In this document: piece after piece, positions 29,762 to 37,460 of the stretch
Layout: each line of letters begins with the position of its first letter
Position numbering within the stretch: position 1 is the first letter of the stretch
Assembly: GCA_020831765.1 (NCBI GenBank)
Contig: JAFIFY010000052.1
Span: 1 to 59,910, forward strand
Direction: 5' to 3'
DNA: 59,910 bases
Origin: Phycisphaeraceae bacterium
GTDB taxonomy: Bacteria; Planctomycetota; Phycisphaerae; Phycisphaerales; Phycisphaeraceae
Made by a program: the position numbers and the translations under genes
Notes under the pieces: generated by a model
What the model saw: the letters and a program-made list of their open reading frames with translations, nothing else
What the model was told of the DNA's origin: nothing
Database searches by the model: none

Positions 29762-31372
29762 CTACGCAGCCGACTCATCCGCGGCACGCGCCAGCCGATC
29801 CCCCACCTGCTTGACGATCTGCTCGGCAACCTGATTGGGACCATATCCGGCGGGCAGGCGAACCAGCGGTTTGTCGTGTCGATCACAGAAAGTCCGGATG
29901 TTGCTGAAACTATGGCTGCTCCAGCGGATCGCCAGAATCACCAGGGCGGTATCCGGGCGGGCGATTGGCGGTTCAAACGGAGCGATGGACTGATGCTCAC
30001 GGGTGGCGACCCAATCCAGTTCCGCCAGCCCGAAGGCGCTGCAAAGCGCCTTGGCGGCATGATCGCGGCGATCCCCGCCGATGAGCACAATGCGTCGATC
30101 CCGCAACCAGGACATCACCTGTCTGACGGCTTCGGTCGGTTCCTCGGTACGTACCGGAGTCTGCGGGGGATTCCGCGTCGCCATGTAGCGGTCCAACTGG
30201 CCCAGGACCAGCGAAAAATTCGCCGGAAGCGGATCGATATCCGGCATCTGATCGATGATCGGCAACAGTAGATCGCGAATCTCGGGATTGCTGGCCGCAA
30301 CACCCCGTGCGATCATCTGATCGATCTGATCCACAATGGTTCGCCAATGATGTTCCCTGGAATCGGCCGACGGTTTGCCCATGGCCGTGATGTGATACCG
30401 AACCTTCCGAAGTGCCCTTTCGTTGAGCTTTCCGGTCTCGATCGACTCGCTCAGGAGCTGGTCCAACGACTCGATGCGCTCGGCGACGTCGCTGATGTGC
30501 TCCGGGTCGGCGGTTTCATGCGCCTTCATGTACTTTTCGATGTAGACATGGTGTCGATGGCAGACGTGTCGAAGCCAGTGGTGAACCATGACCTGATCCG
30601 GGTCATCGCGGTGATACCCGAGGGCCGATACGGCGAACCGCAATGCCGACTGCGCCTCGGCCAGCAGGGCCAGGGCGTCGCTGAGCGGGCAATTGGGCCG
30701 GCCCGCTTCCCGGATCGCCCGCCGCGCCAATCCGACCCCTGCCGCCGTTGTCTCAAAGCAAAGCGCCACATCCTCGAATCGTGTCAGATCATCCGGACAG
30801 GGAGCCGAGTGATGGATCATCCACAGGAAACATTCAGGCAGGTCCTTGGCTCGGGAGATGATTTCGCTATCCAGCGGTTCGATATCGCGATAGAAATCAA
30901 CCCCCTCAACCATCAGGCGGTGCCGCCGCGCCGCCCAGCGCGATGCCTCGGCCTTCAATCGGCAGCGCGAGACCAGGGCCGAAAGCTGCTCGTCCGATGG
31001 CGGTTCTCCGATCGCGCCCGCCGCACCGTCCTCCGCGGCTTTCGCCCGAGCAAGCCGCTCACCGGCCAGCGCCGCCAGATCAGGTTCGCCGGAGCCCTCC
31101 CCCGCAGTCGGCTTTCGCCCAACCGGACCCACCGCATGGCCGCCCAGGCCATCACGCAGGCTAACGAGCAACTCGTCGGTTAGCTCCGTATCCGCCTCCG
31201 GAATCGAAGCAGATTCAGCGGAATCGGCTTCCTCATAAGCTTCGGCTTCCAGTGCATTTAACCGGTCGGACAGCACCGAACAGAACTGCCTGAGCAACTG
31301 ACGCAGCTCAAGGTCGGTCGAGGCAATATCCATCAGCTTTTCGATGAGTCGATCACCCGGGTGCTCGTCCAT
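29762..31372 (-). CDS. Unknown protein with a DUF2325-like C-terminal domain
   Basis: The 536-residue product has an N-terminal helical region, an acidic low-complexity linker (residues about 50-135), a long helical middle rich in His and Trp (KYMKAHETADPEHISDVAER), and a C-terminal Rossmann-like domain. That last part, RRIVLIGGDRRDHAAKAL then ALVILAIRWSSHSFSNIRTF and RHDKPLVRLPAGYGPNQVA, fits DUF2325, a family of unknown function with a conserved VGG start and SH pair. ATG at 31372 follows GGAG at six bases and is preferred over a TTG twelve bases upstream. It is convergent with uvrC. Confidence 0.75.
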   Translation of the reverse strand: MDEHPGDRLIEKLMDIASTDLELRQLLRQFCSVLSDRLNALEAEAYEEADSAESASIPEADTELTDELLVSLRDGLGGHAVGPVGRKPTAGEGSGEPDLAALAGERLARAKAAEDGAAGAIGEPPSDEQLSALVSRCRLKAEASRWAARRHRLMVEGVDFYRDIEPLDSEIISRAKDLPECFLWMIHHSAPCPDDLTRFEDVALCFETTAAGVGLARRAIREAGRPNCPLSDALALLAEAQSALRFAVSALGYHRDDPDQVMVHHWLRHVCHRHHVYIEKYMKAHETADPEHISDVAERIESLDQLLSESIETGKLNERALRKVRYHITAMGKPSADSREHHWRTIVDQIDQMIARGVAASNPEIRDLLLPIIDQMPDIDPLPANFSLVLGQLDRYMATRNPPQTPVRTEEPTEAVRQVMSWLRDRRIVLIGGDRRDHAAKALCSAFGLAELDWVATREHQSIAPFEPPIARPDTALVILAIRWSSHSFSNIRTFCDRHDKPLVRLPAGYGPNQVAEQIVKQVGDRLARAADESAA

Positions 31373-31384
31373 GGGGGTCTCCAA

Positions 31385-31843: not shown

Positions 31844-32689
31844 ATGACAGCATCCGCGAGACTTTTGGGTCTGTTCGGGGTGGTATTGTTCATTTTCGTG
31901 ACCGGTTGCCAGAGTTCGGGCGGGGGCGGGGGCGGCACGATCGCGGTGAATCCCGATTCGGACGCCGTACGGGCATGGCGTCAGATGCGTTCCCAGGCCA
32001 GCGCCGCCAGTGTCGGGGCGGGCATCGCCGGCGTCTTCGACCGAACCGCCGGGGCGGGCGTGGGGATCGCGGCCAACTTGCTTCGCGAAGCCCAGTACGA
32101 GGCCGAACGGCAAGCCGACCGGGCGATGGAATCCGATCTCCCAGTCCAGGCCATGAATGAGATGATCGATGAAATGGCCACGTGGCTGGCCCGTGAACTG
32201 GCCGAGCACGAGCGAATCAAGGCCGCGCCGACCCAGGTCGTCCTGGCGTTCGCGGGCAACAAGTTCGAGGGTGGCCGTCCTGCCGGTCGCGATCTGCAGG
32301 AAGTGATGGATGCCATCGAAGGCAGGCTCGCCACCAGTGAGCCGATCACGGACAATTTCGTGATCCTGTCTTCAACCGTCAGCGATGCGGATAAGGCCCT
32401 GCAGAGCATCAACGAGGGCGATTACAGCATGTTCCGCGATCCGCTTCAGCGCGATCTTGTCGACACCACCGCCGCGGTCGCCTACCACCCGGACCTGATC
32501 TACCTGGTCAGCGGCGAACTTTACAGCCGGCAGGATCGAACACAGTACGCCATCTCCATTCGCTTTGTGACCAGCTTCCTCCATGTACGCTCCCGCGAAA
32601 ACCTGCTGACCCGTGAATTCGAGCGGACCTACGTTTGGCATCCCAGGCAGAAAGAATGGCAGGTTCAGCACATTGCCGCAGCGCCGTGA
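31844..32689 (+). CDS. LpoB-like lipoprotein, paralogue 1
   Basis: The signal peptide ends in the lipobox FVTGC followed by QSSGGGGGG, so the 281-residue product is probably a lipoprotein. After a helical region (residues about 40-105) comes an LpoB/YcfM-like domain: KAAPTQVVLAFAGN, DAIEGRLATSEPITDNFVIL, SDADKAL, MFRDPLQ and DTTAAVAYHPDLIYLVSGEL. LpoB in E. coli is an outer-membrane lipoprotein that activates a penicillin-binding protein; whether this relative does so is unknown. The next gene encodes a clear paralogue. GGGGA before the ATG supports the start. It is first in a five-gene set on the same strand. Confidence 0.85.
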   Translation: MTASARLLGLFGVVLFIFVTGCQSSGGGGGGTIAVNPDSDAVRAWRQMRSQASAASVGAGIAGVFDRTAGAGVGIAANLLREAQYEAERQADRAMESDLPVQAMNEMIDEMATWLARELAEHERIKAAPTQVVLAFAGNKFEGGRPAGRDLQEVMDAIEGRLATSEPITDNFVILSSTVSDADKALQSINEGDYSMFRDPLQRDLVDTTAAVAYHPDLIYLVSGELYSRQDRTQYAISIRFVTSFLHVRSRENLLTREFERTYVWHPRQKEWQVQHIAAAP

Positions 32690-32779
32690 TGCGCTTCAGC
32701 AACATGAACCGGCCGAGTCTCCCCGGTGCGCCCGCCGGCTCGACTCGATCCTCAAACAAAGAATAAGGAGCTGAGTCCC

Positions 32780-33451
32780 ATGCTCAATCGAACTTCCCGA
32801 ATCGTCATGACCCCCATGCTCGCCGCTGTCTTCGCCCTCGTGGCGGTGGGATGCGGGTCAAGCCCCACGCCCCCGCCCGGTCCCGTGCAGCAGCGTTCGG
32901 ACACGGGTCGAATGCAGCCGGTTCCGGTCGCTTATCTGAATGAACTGGTCGAAGATGCCGCCCAGACGATCGTGCGGCAGTTGCCGGAGAATCCGCGTAT
33001 CCGCCAAGCGCCGACGCAACAGGTTCTCATGGTCCATCCCCGGATGGTCAATGAAGCCAACTGGCCGGACGGCGCGGTCAGCGAAGCGCTCTCGACGCTC
33101 GTCGGCCGCCTGACCAACGCCGAACCCATCACCGACAATTTCGTCATCCTCGTCGGAACCGCCGCCGATGCCGACCGCACCATCCGGCAGACCGAGGGCG
33201 ACACCGCTCAATTCAGGGATCCGCTGCAGGGCGGCGGCGAGGACACCACCGCCGCGCGGCAATACCACCCGGACCTGATCTACACCCTCACCGGCCGCTT
33301 CTGGCTCACCGATGCCGGTGATGGCCTTCGATCCTACCGCATGAGCATCCGGGTTCAGCATGAGCGGACTCGACAGCTTGTCCTGGATCGAACGGTGCAG
33401 AAGCTGCTTCGCTGGGACGGCCGGCGGAATCGCTGGGTGCCCACCGACTGA
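32780..33451 (+). CDS. LpoB-like lipoprotein, paralogue 2
   Basis: The lipobox is VAVGC after a typical signal peptide. A Pro-rich linker leads to a domain that matches the upstream protein in order: RQAPTQQVLMVHP, VGRLTNAEPITDNFVIL, ADADRTI, QFRDPLQ, DTTAARQYHPDLIYTLTGRF. The identical EPITDNFVIL and YHPDLIY blocks show a tandem duplication. The product has 223 residues and lacks the extra N-terminal helical region of paralogue 1. AAGGAG ten bases before ATG 32780 marks the start. The predicted fold is the alternating strand-helix layout of LpoB/CsgG-like domains. Confidence 0.85.
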   Translation: MLNRTSRIVMTPMLAAVFALVAVGCGSSPTPPPGPVQQRSDTGRMQPVPVAYLNELVEDAAQTIVRQLPENPRIRQAPTQQVLMVHPRMVNEANWPDGAVSEALSTLVGRLTNAEPITDNFVILVGTAADADRTIRQTEGDTAQFRDPLQGGGEDTTAARQYHPDLIYTLTGRFWLTDAGDGLRSYRMSIRVQHERTRQLVLDRTVQKLLRWDGRRNRWVPTD

Positions 33452-33566
33452 CCGCCGAGCCGATAACGGCCGCGCCCCGCCCTGCCCGGCATCGGCCGTC
33501 GAGTGGTGCCCGGCCGGGCAAACCCTGTTCGAACCATGGTCCAACTTGAACCAGGAGTGGAACTCG

Positions 33567-33989
33567 ATGAAACACACCACATGGCCAGTCGCCATTCTCA
33601 TGCTGATCGCCCTGGGGCTGTTCAGCCCCGGCTGCCGCAGGGACAACATCATGGCGCCCAATGTGCCGCCACCGGATCCGGTCGCTCCGGGTGCTTACCC
33701 GCAGGTCGTTCTCCTGGGCGGCCTTGAGCGGCAACTGGTGATTCACGAATCGCCCCATGTCACCCGCACCGGCCAGGACCTTCTGCGGGCACGGGTCACG
33801 CTGCGTTCGGTGGTGGACCGCAATCTGGTCATTCACTACCGCTTCATCTTTGAATCCGAAGATGGTGAGCAGATCGGTGCTGCCCCGACCTGGCGCCAGA
33901 CCACGGTCAACGCCCGGACGCTGGTTCGGATGGATGGCAATGCTCTGAGCCGACGGGCGACACGCTGGCGCCTGGAGGTTCGCCCTTGA
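33567..33989 (+). CDS. YcfL-like (DUF1425) lipoprotein
   Basis: The 140-residue product has a signal peptide with lipobox FSPGC. The mature part is a beta-sandwich like the YcfL/DUF1425 family: LERQLVIHESPHVTRT, DLLRARVTLRSVVDRNLVIHYRF, then FESEDGEQIGAAPTWR. The pattern of added strands around a YRF motif and a polar E/D-G turn is characteristic. In E. coli, ycfL lies directly next to lpoB (ycfM); here the YcfL-like gene follows two LpoB-like genes. AGGAG before ATG 33567 supports the start. Confidence 0.75.
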   Translation: MKHTTWPVAILMLIALGLFSPGCRRDNIMAPNVPPPDPVAPGAYPQVVLLGGLERQLVIHESPHVTRTGQDLLRARVTLRSVVDRNLVIHYRFIFESEDGEQIGAAPTWRQTTVNARTLVRMDGNALSRRATRWRLEVRP

Positions 33990-34063
33990 TCCATTCGGGC
34001 CGCCGGCTCGATCCGATGCCGCAACCACTGAACCAAGCCCCACCTGAAAGCAAAGGGGATGTC

Positions 34064-36109
34064 ATGAAGCTCAAACCGACCGATTCCACGTTCCATTGGA
34101 CGACCATCTGGACTTTCCTGGCCGTTCTGATGATCAGTGCCGCCGCACATGGCCAACCGAAGCCGCCACCCGGCTCGGTCGTTCCGGCCGGCGATGGCCC
34201 CAAGCCACCTCCAACCGCGACGGTCGCCACCGAGCCGCAACTGAGCGGCGATCAGCGCCAGCAGTTCACCCGCTGGTACAACGATCGGGGCCAACCCCGG
34301 ATCCTGATCCTCGTGGGCATGGATTCCCGGCCCTCGGAGGCATCGCCCCAGGGCAGGGTCGGCGACATCGGTGGAGCGCGGGTCGGGGCGCGCGGCGTTG
34401 GAGGCAAGATCGCGCTCTGGGATCCCTCCGGCGTGACCGAACAACTTCAGACCGCCATCGGCGTCGAACTGACCAAGCTGCAGCCGGGTATCCGACTCAT
34501 CGACATGGACAGCATGGCCGAACTCGATCGCCGCAAGCTCGCGATCATTGAAGCCAACGACGAGGAGACGGTTCTTCTGGGTCTGGCCACCTCGATGCGC
34601 GCCGATTACATCCTCTATGTGAAACTGCAGCCGTACCCGCCCGATGAGCCGGTTCCCGCCGGCCGACGCTATCCGTACAAGGGGGTGGCGATGTGGAAGG
34701 ATTACCAGTGGGCGGGCAATATCCCGATCGCCAGCTTCGACTGGGACGGCAGCCGGGATAATCGCGTCGTCCGCCGCTACGCCATCGCGCTGGCCGAGGA
34801 AGCGGCCAAGTCCATCGGCCGTCACCACGCGGGCAGTCCGGGCGGGGCGTTCTACAACGTCGAGATCGTTGGGATCACCGAGGATCAGGCATTCGACATG
34901 ATGGATGCGATCACCGACATCCGGAATGTCGTGCGCGAACCTCGTATGGATATGGTCCGCAACGAGGGCGAAATGATCGCCAAGTTCGAGGTTCTTTATC
35001 CCGGTCAGCTCAACCGCCTGGTGCGCGATATCCGCCGCGCTTCGGATCGTGAGTTCAACACCCCCCTGACGATCATCGATCTTCAACAGGCTGAAGCGGT
35101 GCTTCGCTTCGGGGAACGAAAGCCCGAGGATCGGCCGGACTGGTGGCGCATCACGGCCGGCGAGGGTGACCAGGCCGATGCGTTCAAGACGTTCTACGGA
35201 CAGGCCAACCGTCCCAAGGTCGGGGTCATGATCCATCACATGATCCGGCCTGAGCAGGCCAGTTGGCCCCTGGAATACATCCTGGCCTACAACTTCCGCG
35301 GCCGGCTTTCGAATCTGACGATCAAGGATGTGCCCGACGGCATCTACAAAGTCCAGACCGGCCAGCCCGACACCCGAAGCACAACGGTTTCGGCCAACAT
35401 CGGCATTGGCATGGTGCAGATGGAAGGCCACCTGGCCAACTGGCTGGCGAGCTCGGGCGCGACGGTGGTGCGTGGCGATATGGCCAGCCGCGCCATGAAC
35501 CAGCATCTTGAAGAGGCCGCGGGGCGCGGCGATGCGCGGATGAGCGATATTCTCCGGCACCAGGACGGCTTCGACCTGATGCTGCATGTCTGGGCGTACG
35601 CCCAGGGCCGCGATGATGCCGCGGCGCAGAACATTCAGTATGTCTTCCGCCTCGATGATGTCCGGACGGGAACGTTCATCGCCTCGGCCAACTGGCCGGA
35701 CATGAGCTTCAACACCGACGGCTTGGAGCGGGATGATTTCGATGCACGCAAACCCGAGGATATCGCCCGATACGCGGTGGGCCGCCTACTCTCCCGATGG
35801 GCGGCACAGAGCGCTTCCCGGCAGGATGTGGTGGTTTCGGTTCAGAATGCCGGTAGCCTGGATCAGGTTCAGGCCATCGCCGATGCGATGCGCACGCTGC
35901 CCGGCGTATCCATCACCCGCGCGCCGACCTATCAGGATGGACTTGGCGAGATGACCCTGTCCCATGCCGGCACCTATCACGACCTGCTGGTGCCGGCCAC
36001 GAACCAGGCCGCGCGATTCCCATTCAGCGTGCAGACCGTCGGCGCCAATGCCAGCCGAATCGTCCTTCGCGTCGAGCCGGCCCACGAGCCGGCGGAAGAG
36101 CCGGAATAG
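34064..36109 (+). CDS. Large secreted protein with two LpoB/CsgG-like repeats
   Basis: The 681-residue product has a signal peptide ending SAAAHG and a Pro-rich linker, then two similar halves. Half 1 (residues about 77-310) has QPRILILVG, GIRLIDMDSMAELDRRKL, RADYILYVKLQ, IPIASFDW, RRYAIALAEEA and YNVEIVGITEDQA. Half 2 (residues about 383-640) has RPKVGVMIH, GATVVRGDMASRAMNQHL, GFDLMLHVWAY, TFIASANW, ARYAVGRLLSRWA and QDVVVSVQNAGSLDQ. The order and spacing match, so the gene arose by internal duplication. The strand-helix pattern resembles LpoB/CsgG-like domains. There is no lipobox and no membrane span after the signal. ATG 34064 has AAGGGG just upstream. Confidence 0.8.
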   Translation: MKLKPTDSTFHWTTIWTFLAVLMISAAAHGQPKPPPGSVVPAGDGPKPPPTATVATEPQLSGDQRQQFTRWYNDRGQPRILILVGMDSRPSEASPQGRVGDIGGARVGARGVGGKIALWDPSGVTEQLQTAIGVELTKLQPGIRLIDMDSMAELDRRKLAIIEANDEETVLLGLATSMRADYILYVKLQPYPPDEPVPAGRRYPYKGVAMWKDYQWAGNIPIASFDWDGSRDNRVVRRYAIALAEEAAKSIGRHHAGSPGGAFYNVEIVGITEDQAFDMMDAITDIRNVVREPRMDMVRNEGEMIAKFEVLYPGQLNRLVRDIRRASDREFNTPLTIIDLQQAEAVLRFGERKPEDRPDWWRITAGEGDQADAFKTFYGQANRPKVGVMIHHMIRPEQASWPLEYILAYNFRGRLSNLTIKDVPDGIYKVQTGQPDTRSTTVSANIGIGMVQMEGHLANWLASSGATVVRGDMASRAMNQHLEEAAGRGDARMSDILRHQDGFDLMLHVWAYAQGRDDAAAQNIQYVFRLDDVRTGTFIASANWPDMSFNTDGLERDDFDARKPEDIARYAVGRLLSRWAAQSASRQDVVVSVQNAGSLDQVQAIADAMRTLPGVSITRAPTYQDGLGEMTLSHAGTYHDLLVPATNQAARFPFSVQTVGANASRIVLRVEPAHEPAEEPE

Positions 36110-36168
36110 CCGCTCAACATCCTGGAAAAACTCGGTTTGCCTCGTGTCGCATCCCAAGGAGAACCGGC

Positions 36169-36570
36169 ATGAACACTCGACCCACGGCCATCAACACCAT
36201 GCTCGCCGCAACGGCCATCCTGTTCCTCCTCGTCGGAACGATGAGCTGCTCCTCGCGGCCGGGCGTGAACACGCGCTTCGGCGAACGCGTGCAGTATTTC
36301 AACCATCCCGCCGATGATGTCTACCACGCCGCCCAGCGCGCCGCGGCCCGTGTCGAGTTGATGCCCATCAGCCAGTCGCCGGGCTCCCAAGGCGGCGGAA
36401 CGTTGCGGTATCGCGACTTCCAGGACACGCGTGTGACGTTCCGGGTCAACCCGGAGGCGGGAACAACCTCGCGGGTCAACATCAGGATCACCGGCCGGAG
36501 TGAAGGGTTCGCCACGCGGCTCCTGTCGCTGATCACCGAAGAGCTGGGCGCGACGCATCCCGCTTCCTGA
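36169..36570 (+). CDS. Small lipoprotein, DUF3568-like
   Basis: The 133-residue product has a signal peptide and a lipobox-like GTMSC near residue 27. The mature part reads VNTRFGERVQYFNHPADDVYHAAQRAA, a strand-helix opening seen in DUF3568-type lipoproteins in which a helix with DDVYxAA precedes beta strands. Later strands (TLRYRDFQDTRVTFRV, SRVNIRITGRSEGF) and a final helix complete a small alpha/beta domain. AAGGAG seven bases before the ATG is a strong ribosome binding site. It closes the lipoprotein cluster, 59 bp after the duplicated secreted protein. Function unknown. Confidence 0.7.
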   Translation: MNTRPTAINTMLAATAILFLLVGTMSCSSRPGVNTRFGERVQYFNHPADDVYHAAQRAAARVELMPISQSPGSQGGGTLRYRDFQDTRVTFRVNPEAGTTSRVNIRITGRSEGFATRLLSLITEELGATHPAS

Positions 36571-37418: not shown

Positions 37419-37460
37419 CTTGAAGTTTGCGTTTTGCAGTCAGGTCAGGCGATGGCGAGG

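Follow-up and report, generated by a model that had tools for sequence, protein, structure and literature searches.

A divergent second copy of a planctomycete lipoprotein gene cluster with LpoB-family, YcfL-like, and CsgG/TolB-fold proteins

INTRODUCTION

LpoB is the outer-membrane switch of the penicillin-binding protein (PBP) PBP1B. In Escherichia coli K-12 its gene lies next to ycfL (b1104-b1105), so that genes for a DUF1425 lipoprotein and an LpoB-family lipoprotein stand side by side. The same two families are neighbors in a stretch of 59,910 nucleotides from Phycisphaeraceae bacterium (GenBank assembly GCA_020831765.1, contig JAFIFY010000052.1), which we refer to as the window. An earlier note, made from the letters of the window alone, described at 31844-36570 a cluster of five exported-protein genes (here g1 to g5) encoding two LpoB-like lipoproteins, a YcfL/DUF1425-like lipoprotein, a 681-residue protein with two LpoB/CsgG-like halves, and a small DUF3568-like lipoprotein. 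It pointed to the pairing of ycfL and lpoB in enterobacteria, which we checked and which K-12 bears out, and took the set for an envelope complex whose role in planctomycetes might be a different one.

A second system of this kind is known from Campylobacter. There a lipoprotein operon, cj0089-cj0091, encodes a TPR lipoprotein, a small lipoprotein, and an LpoB homologue (PMC3100323, PMC11394524). Cj0091 is an outer-membrane protein needed for adherence and Cj0089 is associated with the inner membrane (PMC3100323); loss of HP0018 in Helicobacter results in outer-membrane hypervesiculation, the hydrolases MltD and AmiA being candidate partners, and HP1457, the orthologue of Cj0091, is an LpoB homologue according to the authors (PMC11394524). 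We found no description of the planctomycete cluster in the literature searched, subscription papers lying outside the scope of that search.

RESULTS AND DISCUSSION

The window holds a second copy of a cluster widespread in the class

Genes g1 to g5 are a reshuffled, reduced, and re-duplicated second copy of a cluster that is widespread in the class, which was not visible to a reader of the window alone. Around relatives of these genes there is a recurring set consisting of LpoB1 (family A), LpoB2 (family B), a TPR lipoprotein of ~570 amino acids (aa) (family C), DUF1425 (family D), and then often a member of the g4 family (family E). In the labels used below, G denotes a genome (G000 being the window's own), C followed by a number a contig, and L a locus. 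With family C as the bait, and thus present by construction, we confirmed 107 loci and kept 80, including some from which the profiles were built. A-B-C-D stood in order on one strand in 62 of the 80, and several of the other 18 were cut by contig ends. Family E was present in 28 and came directly after D in gene order in 25. The earlier note had proposed a gene-neighborhood survey across planctomycetes and had made its reading depend on conserved clustering, and this recurring order supplies it. Two members of the core, the second LpoB and the ~570-aa TPR lipoprotein, could not be seen from the window.

Families A and B are homologous (hhalign 98.8%), and 8 of 12 family B members matched PF13036 (LpoB) at E≤1, the best at 9.4e-7. 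Beyond these families, no further gene family (families being left unannotated in this count) occurred in more than 8 of 84 loci, i.e., the 80, three others, and the window, many of them cut by contig ends. Across 151 genomes (this one and 150 relatives), DUF1425 was found in 105, family C in 63 (58 by a strict count, once five weak matches were dropped), and family E in 15; among 298 genomes of the class, family C matched 85, often only partially. The 80 loci are all titled planctomycetes (mostly with names in Phycisphaer-), except one labelled Leptolyngbya. The cluster at that locus (L168, titled Leptolyngbya sp. PLA1) is of the planctomycete kind, and in the DUF1425 tree its protein falls into a tight group with a Phycisphaerales sequence; the genome is probably that of a mislabelled planctomycete.

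The window's own genome also carries the canonical A-B-C-D copy, on contig G000:C134, and no family E gene was detected in that canonical stretch. The window cluster has neither LpoB2 nor the family C TPR gene. Genome G037 likewise has both a canonical cluster (L072) and a second cluster (L034), the latter made up of a DUF3568-like gene, two LpoB1 genes, DUF1425, and a gene for a 1750-aa E-like/subtilase/caspase protein. In a tree of LpoB1, built from the best 34 of 70 family A rows, g1, g2, and the second-copy pair of G037 formed one clade (100/99), apart from the canonical LpoB1 of both genomes. Within it g1 grouped with the long copy of G037, L034_A1 (100/84), and therefore the duplication of the LpoB1 pair is older than the split of the genomes. 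In the DUF1425 tree, from which short rows were left out, g3 joined the second-type D genes of G037 and of a third genome, G066 (95/90, with a long-branch warning); in G066 a neighboring 266-aa protein is only marginally LpoB1-like. On these comparisons, which draw on two to three genomes, the window cluster resembles a subtype of its own that has no LpoB2 or TPR gene rather than a random product of decay.

Gene layout and export signals

The five consecutive plus-strand genes for exported proteins were confirmed exactly where they had been placed (Table 1). Adjacent genes are 59-115 bp apart, and, by eye, a purine-rich, ribosome-site-like stretch precedes every start. Judged in the same way, a signal-peptide-like N-terminal segment is present in all five proteins. 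The four lipoboxes reported for the cluster were also found, those of g1 (VTGC) and g2 (AVGC) being good and those of g3 (SPGC) and g5 (TMSC) weaker. The lipobox cysteine did not vary among aligned relatives, of which there were 16 rows for g1/g2, 14 for g3, and 3 for g5; g4 has a signal peptide and no lipobox.

The LpoB-family pair

Taken singly, neither g1 nor g2 matched PF13036 at E≤1, and nothing meaningful was returned by Pfam and NCBIfam for g1, g2, or g4. The two proteins match each other (phmmer 1.4e-34) and also match lipoproteins of related genomes, which form family A. In alignment A7, consisting of the two window proteins and 63 of the 70 family A rows (7 weak or truncated rows were left out), 51 of 65 rows matched PF13036 at E≤0.01, and no other family was matched; in an earlier family A set, 12 of 16 members matched PF13036 at E≤1. 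The family A profile scored E. coli LpoB at 18.2 bits (E 3.8e-4 for a nominal 5000 sequences), and a profile of the four second-copy LpoB proteins alone failed to find it.

The AlphaFold model of g2 had a mean predicted local distance difference test (pLDDT) score of 81.5, with 126 of 223 residues at 90 or more. Its best structural match was E. coli LpoB (4q6z; Z 9.3, root mean square deviation 4.2, 119 aligned), and the best rows other than LpoB, PelC and XCC0632, had Z 6.9. Foldseek placed the CsgG pre-pore on top, followed by GNA1162 and LpoB. Profile searches of solved structures gave no credible match for families A, B, E, or C. Hence the pair can be called LpoB-like through the family to which it belongs and, for g2, through the LpoB C-terminal fold, but not through a Pfam match of its own.

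The DUF1425 and DUF3568-like lipoproteins

The YcfL/DUF1425 assignment of g3 held, with a match to PF07233 at E=4.2e-10 and 39.8 bits against a curated cut-off of 28.3. A profile of g3 and 13 relatives found the solved structure 3o0l ("Uncharacterized protein") at E=6.8e-7, and the family D profile scored E. coli YcfL at 23.6 bits. For g5, the DUF3568 call is weak: PF12092 was matched at 0.045 and 14.3 bits, below the cut-off of 23.2. Homologues of g5 were found by phmmer at L035 (2.4e-9) and L034 (0.0044), the one at L035 scoring PF12092 at 5.8e-4, also below cut-off, and in G066 (locus L075) a relative is encoded close to the DUF1425 and g4-family genes.

The g4 protein and its relatives

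Aligned with each other by hhalign, the two halves of g4 gave a probability of 99.3% and E=1.3e-20 over 275 columns; they are homologous, and g4 is therefore an internal duplication. Its model is of medium confidence (mean pLDDT 71.7; predicted template modeling score, 0.45). In the structural search, for which rows within Z 1 are tied and the tool cautions on long models, the second half matched FlgT (Z 10.2) and TolB (Z 9.8), residues 73-254 matched TolB (Z 9.3), and the match of the model to LpoB had Z 7.8. The model gives each half a fold of the CsgG/TolB-N/FlgT-middle type and, as read from the strand order, a small ferredoxin-like domain after it. Top Foldseek matches of g4 to CinA proteins had template modeling scores below 0.35 and were set aside.

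No Pfam family matched g4 at E≤1, and the CsgG profile (PF03783) matched none of the 10 members of the g4-family alignment A4 (g4 and 9 relatives). In sequence the halves did not resemble families A and B of LpoB or E. coli LpoB, with which they have the fold alone in common, and a scan of the genome contigs with g4 alone found no relative. Thus, of the proposal that the 681-residue protein consists of two LpoB/CsgG-like halves, the fold and the duplication were borne out, whereas sequence similarity to LpoB and a Pfam match to CsgG were not. CsgG (curli secretion), FlgT, and the TolB N-domain share the fold of g2 and of both g4 halves, but g4 differs from all of them in its lack of a Pfam match to any and in having two units in tandem. 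Structure prediction, which had also been proposed, thus yielded the LpoB fold for g2 and, at medium confidence, the CsgG/TolB/FlgT fold for g4.

In distant families of the class a single-unit E protein is encoded directly beside DUF1425, in L194 (hhalign 96-97% to both g4 halves) and in L196 (95% to the second half only). Directly beside DUF1425 in L191 and L198 is a Pfam CsgG protein, with an FlgT_C domain in L191 and weakly in L198; the g4 halves have no sequence similarity to these two CsgG proteins. Another arrangement, seen among 20 further loci, comprises CsgG (with PEGA), a TPR protein, DUF1425, and LpoB, and Pfam confirmed CsgG in the four of these loci that were scanned (L174, L178, L182, and L190). 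In other families of the class, six loci (Table 1) encode the C-terminal part of the family C protein as a separate gene of ~150-180 aa near the TPR gene, and no convincing Pfam family was found for it in the two of the six that were scanned. That this domain is fused in family C and split elsewhere suggests that the TPR protein and the domain act together.

Two E-family proteins carry protease domains. One, at L103:5177-8143, has 988 aa and a C-terminal trypsin-like protease domain (5.7e-25); L103 was the 1 of 28 family E rows left out before alignment A6. The other is the 1750-aa protein encoded after the second-type DUF1425 gene of G037 (L034:7864-13116, on G037:C22), in which an E-like part is joined to a subtilase (1.6e-42) and a caspase-family domain (7e-21).

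Class A PBPs and the cluster

We tallied class A PBPs by the Transgly domain (PF00912), which was found in 10 of the 151 genomes, 9 of these 10 being among the 130 genomes with a completeness of 90% or more; the FtsW/RodA family was found in all 151. A class A PBP was present in 4 of 58 genomes with family C versus 6 of 93 without it (Fisher P = 1.0, over genomes of varying completeness), and the result was the same with the five weak family C matches put back (P = 1.0). Expressed the other way, family C was in 4 of 10 Transgly-positive versus 54 of 141 Transgly-negative genomes and DUF1425 in 7 of 10 versus 98 of 141 (both P = 1.0). Because neither family is associated with class A PBPs, it is improbable that in most carriers the module relies on an enzyme of this class. 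Class A PBPs can be missing from bacteria of the Planctomycetes-Verrucomicrobia-Chlamydiae group, a Planctomyces included (PMC8406291).

The window's genome is one of the Transgly-positive ones. The search for PBP1-type enzymes, also proposed at the outset, returned two class A fragments, each truncated at the end of its contig (Table 1). They are 97% identical over 360 residues and so are probably one gene assembled twice, or two near-copies. The fragment with the intact N terminus has Transgly and Transpeptidase domains and no UB2H, and the other ends in BiPBP_C. UB2H matches over the cut-off occurred in 25 of the 151 genomes. This genome has one such match and a second UB2H-like one below the cut-off; the two turned out to be Mfd and UvrB and were rejected as docks for LpoB. 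A UB2H-bearing PBP, the known client of E. coli LpoB, was therefore not found in this genome, the assembly of which is 98% complete. The link from LpoB to a PBP, which had been raised with caution, did not hold up here.

Function of the cluster

We take Cj0090 of the Campylobacter operon to be a DUF1425 protein. That operon, with HP0018/HP1457 of Helicobacter, is the closest studied system, and the planctomycete cluster resembles it in combining a TPR lipoprotein, a small lipoprotein, and an LpoB homologue; the canonical version differs in that LpoB is encoded twice, the TPR protein is longer, and a relative of g4 is often present. In the E. coli ycfL-lpoB stretch, no TPR or CsgG-fold gene is annotated. 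The TPR lipoprotein is present in the canonical copy at C134 and absent from the window cluster.

Going beyond gene content, predicted fold, and distribution, we infer, with a confidence about evenly divided between yes and no, that g1-g5 form a lipoprotein complex that is periplasmic, anchored in the outer membrane, and engaged in envelope upkeep, and that its clients are SEDS synthases or hydrolases. By analogy with the Campylobacter and Helicobacter lipoproteins, a complex that links the outer membrane to peptidoglycan turnover would be favored. The LpoB-fold lipoproteins and the YcfL protein would sit in the outer membrane, and g4, through its two CsgG/TolB-like units, would form a periplasmic platform. 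The complex would then be in contact with the peptidoglycan machinery, and, because class A PBPs are usually not found, the candidate clients are SEDS-class B synthases or hydrolases. Such contact would keep the cell wall and the outer membrane in step, as is proposed for the related Campylobacter/Helicobacter lipoproteins. The families and folds thus support the earlier note's envelope complex and the possibility of a different role in planctomycetes, and its reading as a whole is partly supported. A bolder version is conceivable, but we consider it doubtful: LpoB-family lipoproteins freed from class A PBPs would, together with YcfL, TPR, and tandem CsgG/TolB-fold proteins, regulate SEDS-class B synthases or hydrolases directly, and g1-g5 would make up a distinct, paralogous complex that serves a client of its own.

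That LpoB and YcfL form a conserved module in organisms in most of which no class A PBP was found suggests a more general job for the module than PBP activation, and the few genes involved offer a way to find that job. The cluster is likewise an entry point to how planctomycetes connect the wall to the outer membrane.

Several points weigh against an envelope-upkeep complex. The outer-membrane destination of the window lipoproteins is assumed, and the window copy is without the TPR gene that bears the parallel to Campylobacter and Helicobacter. Family C is itself likened to Cj0089/HP0018 by description, and the inner-membrane location of Cj0089 and the adherence phenotype of Cj0091 are not explained by such a role. 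Because PelC, PqiC, LptE, and many other envelope lipoproteins also have the LpoB fold, the fold does not indicate function. Cotranscription of g1-g5 is deduced from gene spacing, and a promoter/terminator scan was empty. No experiment on any planctomycete member was found.

Other explanations of the cluster have to be set against this evidence. The absence of LpoB2 and TPR genes and the long branches in the LpoB1 and DUF1425 trees could mean that the window copy is a decaying, functionless duplicate of the canonical cluster. All five reading frames are intact, however; G037 has a comparable second cluster, made up of an LpoB1 pair, DUF1425, and a DUF3568-like gene among others, and the duplication behind the pair predates the split; and g3 joins the second-type D genes of G037 and G066, subject to the long-branch warning. 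Decay is therefore highly improbable. It is very unlikely too that g1 and g2 play the classical part of LpoB and activate a class A PBP through a UB2H-type dock. Both are LpoB family members, with the fold modeled for g2, and a class A PBP does exist in this genome, but its N terminus has no UB2H, the UB2H-like matches are Mfd and UvrB, and cluster and class A PBPs are not associated (4 of 58 versus 6 of 93).

The structural matches raise two further possibilities. If g4 and its partners were a CsgG-like apparatus for secretion or assembly, exporting through an outer-membrane channel gated by the lipoproteins, then the CsgG pre-pore at the top of the Foldseek list of g2, the Pfam CsgG proteins near DUF1425/LpoB genes in other lineages, and the fusions that join E-family proteins to trypsin domains or to a subtilase and a caspase would all be in keeping. 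We nonetheless think it unlikely, since neither g4 nor its 9 relatives match Pfam CsgG, the g4 halves have no sequence similarity to the CsgG proteins of L191/L198, no further recurrent neighbor offers itself as a substrate, and g4 has no lipobox. FlgT, tied with TolB, is the top structural match of g4, and an FlgT_C domain is present in the CsgG protein of L191 and weakly in that of L198, so that g4 and the lipoproteins might instead be accessories of the flagellar outer ring, like FlgO/FlgP/FlgT. With full-length FlgI defined as a best E below 1e-30 (a chosen cut), family C was present in 55 of 114 genomes with FlgI versus 3 of 37 without (P = 5e-6) in the 151-genome set. This link is confounded by one family with few full-length FlgI genes and few clusters (within-family P ≥ 0.087). 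In the class sample of 298 genomes, which overlaps the 151, FlgI was found in 54 of 85 genomes with family C versus 158 of 213 others (P = 0.09), i.e., in the opposite direction, and 31 of the 85 had no full FlgI match, including 22 of 25 in family f9. These FlgI tallies are uncorrected for kinship or incomplete genomes. As the order-level association was gone in the class-level count, a flagellar role was dropped; we give it hardly any credence.

Neighboring genes and other features

The gene to the left of the cluster, on the opposite strand, looks unrelated to it (Table 1). On the right, the gene that starts at 37420 is presumably LepA-like.

TABLE 1 Coordinates of the cluster genes and of other features. 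Locations without a label are positions in the window.
Feature	Location	Strand	Length (aa)	Description
g1	31844-32689	+	281	LpoB-family lipoprotein (family A, first of duplicated pair)
g2	32780-33451	+	223	LpoB-family lipoprotein (family A, second of pair)
g3	33567-33989	+	140	YcfL/DUF1425 lipoprotein
g4	34064-36109	+	681	Exported protein; two predicted CsgG/TolB/FlgT-fold domains, each followed by a small ferredoxin-like domain
g5	36169-36570	+	133	Small DUF3568-like lipoprotein
Left neighbor	29762-31384	-	540	Weak DUF2325 match (3.8e-5, below cut-off)
Class A PBP fragments	G000:C26:1-1572 (L086); G000:C67:1-1662 (L087)			Transgly, Transpeptidase, BiPBP_C
Separate C-terminal-domain gene	L191:1904-2362
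Separate C-terminal-domain gene	L192:4651-5109
Separate C-terminal-domain gene	L193:4396-4860
Separate C-terminal-domain gene	L198:4181-4678
Separate C-terminal-domain gene	L199:6460-6996
Separate C-terminal-domain gene	L200:3695-4168

In the course of the FlgI counts we observed that many relatives have a long open frame, often of 650-820 aa, whose match is confined to roughly the first two-thirds of FlgI (positions ~5-230), for example, at G131:C16:35727-36434. Such frames occur besides or instead of a full-length FlgI.

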